A stretch of DNA of 64,000 bases, taken from NCBI RefSeq assembly GCF_964030865.1, contig NZ_OZ034984.1, forward strand, positions 992,001 to 1,056,000, written 5' to 3'. Shown piece by piece: positions 31,918 to 37,993 of this stretch. Below the pieces are notes generated by a model, which saw only the letters and a program-made list of their open reading frames with translations, was not told the DNA's origin and made no database searches. The position numbers and the translations under genes are program-made. Source of the DNA: Spiroplasma endosymbiont of Dioctria linearis (GTDB lineage: Bacteria; Bacillota_I; Bacilli_A; Mycoplasmatales; Mycoplasmataceae). Numbering within the stretch: position 1 is the stretch's first letter; every line of letters starts with the position of its first letter.

Positions 31918-32549
31918 TTATATATTAGAAGTATCTTTAATAAAACCCTTAAAAAGACTTTTTAGTTTTTCTTTAAACTCTAAAAACTCTCTTCTTTTAA
32001 TCTTTAATTTCTCAATAATCTCTTTTTGGCTATATCCTTTATAAAGCATTTTTGCCATATTTGCCTCTGTTGCTACACACTCATATTTAATAAAATTTTT
32101 CAAAGTTTCTCTTATATAAAGATTTTTTTGCTCATCATTATATTTTTGTAAAGAAAATTTATCTATATCTCTATCTATAAAAGTTTGGCCTTCTTCTGTT
32201 AGTCCACTTCTAAATGAGTTTATTATCAATAGAGTTATTTTTCTTTTATCTCTTTTAAGATACTTTGCATAATCTAATATACGTCTTTTTATTATAAAAT
32301 TTGCATAAGCTAATAAAGGCACTTTTCTATTTATATCAAATTTATTTTTAATCTCTTTAAGAGCAAAAAAACATGAGATGTAAAATCATCTTTATCCAAT
32401 TGGAGATAACCTAACTTAATATGTTCTGTATTGATAATTTTTATTACGGATTTTTGAAAATGTACTAATTCCTTTTCAGAAATATCATTTCCAAATTCTA
32501 TTCTTATACTTTCTTTAATTGCGTCTACCGCGCCATATTGATTTGGCAT
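31918..32549 (-). pseudogene. sigH: Sigma-70 family factor at the sigH locus, split by a T7 frameshift
   Basis: An alternative sigma factor of about 200 residues if repaired. The N-terminal part (ATG 32549, AAAGGA upstream) runs through DKDDFTSHVF and then goes out of frame at seven T (32371-32365), ending at 32331. The +1 frame continues FALKEIKNKFDINRKVPLLAYANFIIKRRILDYAKYLKR, a clear region 2, then a region 4-like helix-turn-helix (MLYKGYSQKEIIEKLKIKRREF). One extra T would join them. The position between rlmB and rpmG is that of Bacillus sigH. It could be decay, a sequencing error, or expression through slippage on the T run. Confidence 0.7.
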
Positions 32550-32568
32550 TTGTTTTTCCTTTCAAAAT

Positions 32569-35558: not shown

Positions 35559-36227
35559 TTAGTCTTCTCAATAAATTTCTTCGTCGTTATTTTTTTTCAA
35601 CATTGAGTTTATTTTTGAAAATGGTTTACTATTTTCAAATCCGTTTTTAAAACTAAATGGTGAGGGATGAGCAGAAAAAATAATTTTCTCCTCATTTTTA
35701 AATACAAGACTATTATATAGTTTTTTTGCAAAATTTCCCCATAAACAATAAATAATATTTTCATTAAGATTATTTATTTCATTTAAAATTTTTAAAATTA
35801 CTTTATCTCATCCTAAATCTTTATGAGAATTTGGCAAACCCTTTTCAACAGTAAGAGAAGAGTTAATTAAAAAAACACCTTGTTTAACTCAATTTGATAA
35901 GTCATTATTTTGAAAATGATCAATGCCTAGATCACTTTTTAATTCTTTAAAAATATTCTTTAAACTTGGAGGAGTTCTAACACTATTTGATACACTAAAA
36001 GCAATCCCGTTTGCTTGTTTTTTGCCATGATAGGGATCCTGTCCTATAATAATGACCTTAATATCTTTTGGTTTAATTAATTTAAAAACTCTAAAAATAT
36101 CATCCTTTTTAGGATATATATATTCAAAACTTTCAATCTTATTAAGAATATTTTCAATATCTTTAATAATATCTTTATCTGAAAATAAATCAATTCACTC
36201 TTTTGGTAATTCTTTTAATATATTCAT
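35559..36227 (-). CDS. ung: Uracil-DNA glycosylase
   Basis: Removes uracil from DNA in base-excision repair. It has 222 residues with TGA-Trp codons. The catalytic water-activating loop GQDPYHG (Asp64) and the leucine-loop motif HPSPFSF are clear, and LWGNFAKK is the uracil-binding Asn segment. ATG 36227 overlaps the upstream stop as TAATG. Confidence 0.96.
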
Positions 36228-37966
36228 TATTTAAGTAGCTTTTCATATTTCTTTCTAGAACTTTCTTCTCTTCTTTTAATTCTTCTTAGCTCTTTTTTTT
36301 CTTTTTTTGAAAGAGAAATATTATCTAAATCTTCTAATTCTGCATCTTTTCTTGGAGTTGAAAATATTTCATCATCTTCATTAACAGGACCTAAGTCTAT
36401 TACATTTGGATCTCTCTTTTTCAATAGATTATTTTCAGGAATTAAATTCTTTTGGTATATTTCTGTTATTGCTTTTTTTTCAAATTCTTCAGAGTCATCA
36501 TCACCAATAGTAATATTTTTACTTGTTTCTGGTAAATCATCTAATCCAAATACTTTTTCCGGTTCAGGAATTTGATCAATTATTTCTTTTCCATTTTTTT
36601 GTTTTTGATGTTCTTTAATTAATTGACTAGCTACTTCACTTAAATATAAAGTTGGAGTTTCTTCAAAATCTGCATTTACTTCAGGTAAATCATCAAGTCC
36701 ATTAATTTTAGCTTTTTTATTTTGCTTATCAATAAAATCCTGATTAACTATGTTTAAGTCATCTTCTAAATTAATATTTTCTTGCTCAATTACACTTTCA
36801 TTATTATTTCTAAAACTATTAAAACTTGTTAAGTCTTTATATGCAGAAACTTCCCCTAAACTATCATCATCAGTATTATTAATAAAAACTTTATTTTCTT
36901 GAATAATGGCTCCTAATTTATCCTCTTCAAACAAACTTGAATCAATTGAAATAGTATTGTCATTAAATCCAAATTTAAAATCTTCTTCATTATTTTGTTC
37001 TACTTCCTGTTTATCTTCAAATTGAGATTTATTTTCAAATTCTTTTATATTTGCTGGATCATATCTATCTTCAAATTCACTTATTTTCTCTTGCTTATAT
37101 CTATCCTCAAAATTTTTATTAGTAAATAAATTATGTTTAGGATTTCCAATATCTTTATTCATACTCTGTTCATTAACATTTAAGAAGTTATTAATTTGTT
37201 CATTAGGTTCTTCAAAATATATGTTATTAATTTCAGATTCTCTATTATTTTCAATATTATTATTTTCATTATTTCTTAACTTATCAGAAATACTATTTAC
37301 CTGACCGCTTAAATTTAACAATTGATCAGAGAGATTATTTATCTGACCTGATAATATTTTAGAGTTAGAATCCTCATTATTATTTTTATTATACATTTGA
37401 TTATTAAAGTTTGAAGAATCAGCAATAAAACCCCCATTTTGAAATGGTACAAAAGGTCCACTACTTTGACCATTCATAATTCCAAAATTTTGTGTTGGTC
37501 CATTATATGTGGGATATGAAGGTTGTTGCATATTTGGATATCCATAAGTTGGTTGTTGCATATTTGGATACGGCGATTGAATAAAGTTTTGCACAATACT
37601 TGGAACTTGACTTTTTTCACAATTTTGTTGAGGAATCCCATTTTGTACATTGTTAACTGGTTGAGTATTTGACCCTCTATTTTCATTTAAATATTTATTA
37701 GAAACACCATAAGGAGCTGATTGTCCTAATTTTAATTGAAATGGATCTTCATGAATACCAATTTTTTTACTACTAAAATTATTATCATATAAAAAATTAT
37801 TTCTTTGAGGCTTTTGCCAGTTTGAGATAGTTCTATTAGTAGTTTTAATAAGAGATTGTATAAATTTATTTGCTTCCAATTCCCCAATAAAAGATGCCAC
37901 TACTTGATTTGTTCTTCCGTCAACTATATTAAAAAAATCATTTTCAAATTTTACATAATAATTCAT
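36227..37966 (-). CDS. Large acidic, Q/N/P-rich protein of unknown function
   Basis: I do not recognise this 579-residue protein. A short N-terminal region (about 1-55, YYVKFENDFFNIVDGRTNQVVASFIG) could fold. It is followed by a P/Q/N/Y-rich stretch with a repeated YPNMQQP unit near 135-150. Next come a heptad-like LSGQ/ISDKL segment, a long acidic region with repeated EFEDRY-type units, the motif GLDDLPE twice (about 420 and 473), and a very basic C-terminal helix (KKEKKELRRIKRREESSRKKYEKLLK). There is no signal peptide or membrane segment. GAGG precedes ATG 37966. It is coupled to ung by TAATG and lies behind a lipoprotein gene. Confidence 0.7.
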   Translation of the reverse strand: MNYYVKFENDFFNIVDGRTNQVVASFIGELEANKFIQSLIKTTNRTISNWQKPQRNNFLYDNNFSSKKIGIHEDPFQLKLGQSAPYGVSNKYLNENRGSNTQPVNNVQNGIPQQNCEKSQVPSIVQNFIQSPYPNMQQPTYGYPNMQQPSYPTYNGPTQNFGIMNGQSSGPFVPFQNGGFIADSSNFNNQMYNKNNNEDSNSKILSGQINNLSDQLLNLSGQVNSISDKLRNNENNNIENNRESEINNIYFEEPNEQINNFLNVNEQSMNKDIGNPKHNLFTNKNFEDRYKQEKISEFEDRYDPANIKEFENKSQFEDKQEVEQNNEEDFKFGFNDNTISIDSSLFEEDKLGAIIQENKVFINNTDDDSLGEVSAYKDLTSFNSFRNNNESVIEQENINLEDDLNIVNQDFIDKQNKKAKINGLDDLPEVNADFEETPTLYLSEVASQLIKEHQKQKNGKEIIDQIPEPEKVFGLDDLPETSKNITIGDDDSEEFEKKAITEIYQKNLIPENNLLKKRDPNVIDLGPVNEDDEIFSTPRKDAELEDLDNISLSKKEKKELRRIKRREESSRKKYEKLLK

Positions 37967-37993
37967 AGTGATCCTCACCCTTCTTATTTTTTA

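Follow-up and report, generated by a model that had tools for sequence, protein, structure and literature searches.

A sigma-70-family gene at the sigH locus of a Spiroplasma endosymbiont, split at a run of seven T and possibly inactivated in the recent past

Can a sigma factor gene that is divided between two reading frames still serve its cell, and how did it come to be divided? This question is raised by a sigma-70-family gene of the Spiroplasma endosymbiont of Dioctria linearis (G000). The gene is located on the minus strand at 31918–32549 of the window, the 64,000-nt stretch of DNA that was analysed (992001–1056000 of a single contig of 1,230,581 bp), between rlmB and rpmG-secE-nusG. In the ORF reading of the window the gene order is cysS-rlmB-sigma-rpmG-secE-nusG-ppiB-rplK-rplA, with mechanical ORFs as the gene calls away from the sigma locus. 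This order is close to the neighbourhood of Bacillus sigH. The gap after rlmB is short (32550–32568, minus strand) and contains AAAGGA, a motif resembling a ribosome-binding site, before the sigma ATG. This arrangement suggests that the sigma gene may be co-transcribed with rlmB.

The 5' part of the gene (32331–32549, minus strand) is an ORF of 72 codons. Its first 60–61 codons are homologous and the remainder runs out of frame to a TAA. The 3' part (31918–32367, minus strand) encodes the rest of region 2 and the C-terminal helix-turn-helix region in another frame. One genus-wide profile recognises the two pieces, each in its own frame (G000:1024355-1024528 and 1023921-1024385). The change of frame falls at a run of seven T (32365–32371, minus strand), exactly where the initial annotation had placed the switch between the two sigma-70 halves. 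Translation table 4 (TGA=Trp) was used, as rlmB, cysS, nusG, secE and rplA are whole only under this table. Under table 4 the 5' frame still stops at 32331, while the 3' frame has no stop between a point upstream of the T7 run and 31918; the break is thus not an artefact of reading TGA as a stop. A separate protein made from an internal GTG at 32322 was also considered and set aside, as this start lies inside region 2 and has no clear ribosome-binding site.

Pfam and NCBIfam models match the 3' part only weakly, and family searches were performed with an alignment of 17 sigma homologues. The sigma-70 model TIGR02937 is matched by 16 of the 17 homologues (best 2e-12) and the Pfam region 2 model by 14 (best 7e-7). 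SigI models are matched by up to 16 of 17, at about 1e-10 at best, and these matches are far below the cut-offs in the one homologue with a full listing. The curated SigH model, spore_sigH (TIGR02859), is matched weakly by four of the 17 (best 0.0019). Searched against the PDB, the homologue profile has sigma-H 3mzy as its top match (E 1.1e-5, positions 48–205), spanning regions 2 to 4. The protein therefore shows the homology in both region 2 and region 4 that defines a sigma-70-family (SigH-like) factor, and the gene has the position between rlmB and rpmG-secE-nusG expected of a SigH orthologue. We describe the protein as a divergent member of the sigma-70 family encoded at the sigH locus, whose putative SigH orthology is backed by position and not by the curated model. 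It shares its chromosomal neighbourhood with Firmicutes SigH, the spo0H-type sigma factor at rlmB-rpmG-secE-nusG, and its closest solved relative is a sigma-H; however, the Spiroplasma factor is very divergent, and SigI models outscore spore_sigH in region 2.

The placing of a sigma factor at the sigH locus in the initial annotation thus agrees with both the locus order and the sigma-70 profile matches. Its label of a competence-type sigma factor draws on the locus and on a weak similarity, but has no further support: a ComEC-like protein is encoded elsewhere in the G000 genome, and no ComGA-type ATPase was found above the cut-off there. The Pfam region 2 model has two matches in this genome, the broken gene and the main sigma factor. 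The alternative sigma factor MG428 of Mycoplasma genitalium sits at a different locus. It is likewise a secondary sigma factor in a mollicute. PMC5138195 cites regulation through an alternative sigma factor.

A survey of 20 Spiroplasma genomes including G000, one per species, found a sigma gene at the same locus in all 20 and an intact one in 17; the intact or broken state may vary between strains. The nearest relatives of G000 are G004 and S. cantharicola (G001). DNA identity of the window is about 96–97% to G004 and about 88–91% to S. cantharicola, and protein identity over the sigma 3' part is 97% and 89%, respectively. Both relatives carry eight T and a continuous sigma frame of 210 aa, and T7 occurs only in G000. 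This polarises the change: the window has lost one T. The initial annotation had called for a comparison with related genomes and had held that one extra T restores a continuous region 2; the two relatives carry just that T8 form and the whole gene. In the aligned 3.4 kb, the T7/T8 difference is the only coding indel between G000 and these two relatives. Scans of genome contigs found no second isolate, although near records may be left out of such scans.

We consider it somewhat probable, at roughly 55%, that a one-T deletion in the eight-T run has very recently inactivated, in this strain, a conserved secondary sigma factor of Spiroplasma. Ordinary replication slippage would most likely have removed the base. 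Ribosomes would then stop after 72 codons, before the part of region 2 that binds core enzyme and promoter is complete, and functional sigma would consequently be absent or be present only at a leak level from occasional slippage. This reading has four components, all of which we infer: that the deletion is real, that slippage caused it, that function is lost, and that the T7 form is fixed or nearly so in the culture that was sequenced. A related case is that of the near-identical Spiroplasma TU-14 and NBRC 100390, in which 15 of 18 differences are one-base indels, all in homopolymers and all intergenic (PMC5347229); since they are intergenic, they do not demonstrate slippage in coding runs.

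The age of the lesion can be judged from the downstream half. Over codons 63–210, dN/dS is 0.13 for G000 against G004 and also 0.13 for the intact pair G004 and S. cantharicola. The G000 branch carries six synonymous changes and two conservative replacements (K to R and D to E) in this half. Since nonsynonymous sites make up about 81% of the total (362 of 444), the chance of at most two replacements among eight changes would be roughly 1 in 1000 without constraint. Given so few replacements and this dN/dS, which mark strong constraint, the sigma frame was under selection for most or all of the G000 branch, so that the lesion is recent or not real, or some protein is still made. No further stop or indel was found in the 3' half of G000 relative to its relatives. 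Plain decay, which the initial annotation had named as an outcome that would tell against its proposal, should leave more stops, more indels and relaxed constraint, and none of these was observed; if the gene is a pseudogene, the lesion is therefore recent. An error in the assembly, reversible switching or rescue of expression would account for the intact downstream half equally well.

Homopolymer runs are the usual site of base-call and assembly errors, and an isolated error over a true, intact T8 gene would leave the downstream half without decay and with the same dN/dS as in the intact relatives, as is observed. This explanation was weighed against the background of runs and indels. In the coding DNA of the window, 83 homopolymers have a length of 7 and 30 a length of 8 or 9; over a further 188 kb, 100 A/T runs in coding DNA reach 8 or more. 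A run of seven or eight T is by itself not unusual for this coding DNA. The window differs from G004 by 23 indels; nine of these are in ORFs, and the one at the sigma T-run is the sole one that changes a frame. Protein comparison over about 250 kb shared with G004 found three of 202 G004 genes split in G000, and none of 203 in the opposite direction. The sigma gene is one of the three; the others encode a GNAT acetyltransferase and a protein of 179 aa that has no Pfam match. These 250 kb contain about 130 more A/T runs of at least 8 in coding DNA, none of which has split another gene relative to G004, and a general homopolymer sequencing error was ruled out as a genome-wide cause. Homopolymer errors are thus not rampant, and the 3/202 and 0/203 counts indicate that a few frame-breaking small indels are background in G000. 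The presence of three split genes in G000 and none in G004 favours an error; the unbroken long runs and the single frame-changing indel in the window speak against it. We regard an isolated error as unlikely, though it deserves serious consideration.

Both of the other split genes lie outside the window and are intact in G004. The 179-aa protein, of unknown family, is split by the loss of one base at a C-run (G000:C1 about 900811, L084), and the acetyltransferase gene by a two-base indel (G000:C1 about 856138, L082). The asymmetry in frame-breaking indels between G000 and G004 (3 vs 0) rests on small numbers and possibly reflects passage history or assembly quality.

The long T-run is limited to the three closest species (G000, G004 and S. 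cantharicola). Other homologues have T6, T5, T3 or no run at this place, with codons such as GTCTACACT, GTTTATCTT and ATATTTTTT. As the same codons do not form a long T-run in the other homologues, the run simply results from the Val-Phe-Phe codons that one clade uses and is not a conserved tract. Two other species have broken sigma genes. In G013 (L009 1291-1850), the gene is broken by a deletion that removes 142 nt between region 2 and the C-terminal part and also shifts the frame. In G005 (L022 1241-1960), the frame changes twice, each time at an A-run, and the first change lies about six codons downstream of the G000 break. These two further losses by unrelated lesions indicate that the sigma factor is dispensable, at least in sequenced cultures.

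The T7 gene might still be expressed, by transcriptional slippage at U7 or by -1 ribosomal slippage on U_UUU_UUG. This heptamer is in register, having been created by chance by the T deletion, and the shift required has the right direction; the conserved downstream half is also in keeping with continued expression. Frameshifted A/T-tract genes of Blochmannia and Buchnera are reportedly rescued by transcriptional slippage (PMC3017870). Like the sigma gene, those genes belong to AT-rich symbionts and are intact except for one indel at an A/T tract. Unlike here, the emphasis there is on long tracts (9 or more), and some of the frameshifts are conserved between populations or species, whereas the sigma relatives are intact. 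Insertions during transcription occur mainly in A/T runs, but slippage climbs steeply with run length, and the same study found no instance in which a frame was restored by errors of transcription (PMC5574713). Large transcriptional slippage in published work concerns runs of about 9 or more, and selection against slippage usually becomes apparent no earlier than about nine (PMC1088944); T7 is short for transcriptional slippage. The RNA downstream of the run folds no better than shuffled sequences (z 0.19), that is, no stimulatory structure was found there. The relatives encode the intact frame directly, which means that nothing is programmed; with the heptamer in register but no unusual structure beside it, programmed -1 ribosomal frameshifting was rejected. 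Rescue of the T7 gene by slippage in general is considered very doubtful.

The initial annotation had read the T-run as an on/off switch. In such a reversible phase variation, replication slippage would move subpopulations between T7 (OFF) and T8 (ON). The T8 state does occur in G004 and S. cantharicola, and mollicutes offer a precedent for switching at a short run: in M. hominis, a tract of 8 A keeps vaa ON and one of 7 or 9 A turns it OFF, with switching at 1e-3 to 1e-4 (PMC524362). Like the sigma change, this is a one-base change at an 8-base homopolymer in a mollicute gene, with the 7-base form out of frame. Unlike the sigma T-run, the tract in vaa lies near the start of a surface gene, at its 5' end, and its variation was measured, whereas the sigma gene is represented by one fixed sequence and has no conserved tract. 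In Staphylococcus aureus, sigH is switched on reversibly in subpopulations (PMC7911514). This is also a sigH-locus sigma factor active only in part of a population, but it works by gene duplication and 5'UTR repression and not by a coding homopolymer. Contingency loci keep their repeat tract across homologues, and here the T8/T7 run is confined to three species and has a length ordinary for the coding DNA of the window. One allele was seen per genome, and the losses in G013 and G005 are irreversible or affect other positions in the gene. A literature search for a phase-variable sigma factor in Spiroplasma was without match. The proposed switch therefore gained no positive support from the distribution of the run, the RNA downstream of it or the differing lesions of other species, and we rate reversible variation as quite unlikely. 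A flip back to T8 over time is plausible by analogy with vaa and with the TU-14 and NBRC 100390 indels, without amounting to a selected switch. It would be a long shot that this short run flips a secondary sigma factor between T7-OFF and T8-ON and thereby makes a regulon phase-variable in a bacterium whose transcription regulators are very few. Should T7 and T8 prove mixed, the sigma factor would be phase-variable, a surprising finding for Mollicutes.

Recent inactivation by loss of one T is thus the reading that we prefer. If the deletion is real, G000 would have naturally lost the one secondary sigma factor that the Pfam region 2 search detects in its genome. Its intact sister species G004, so similar over the 3' part, would provide a ready comparison for the regulon of this genus-wide factor. 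Elsewhere in the window, a fast-evolving, Asn/Gln-rich low-complexity protein (36227–37978) shows in-frame gains and losses of 18 and 21 nt relative to G004.
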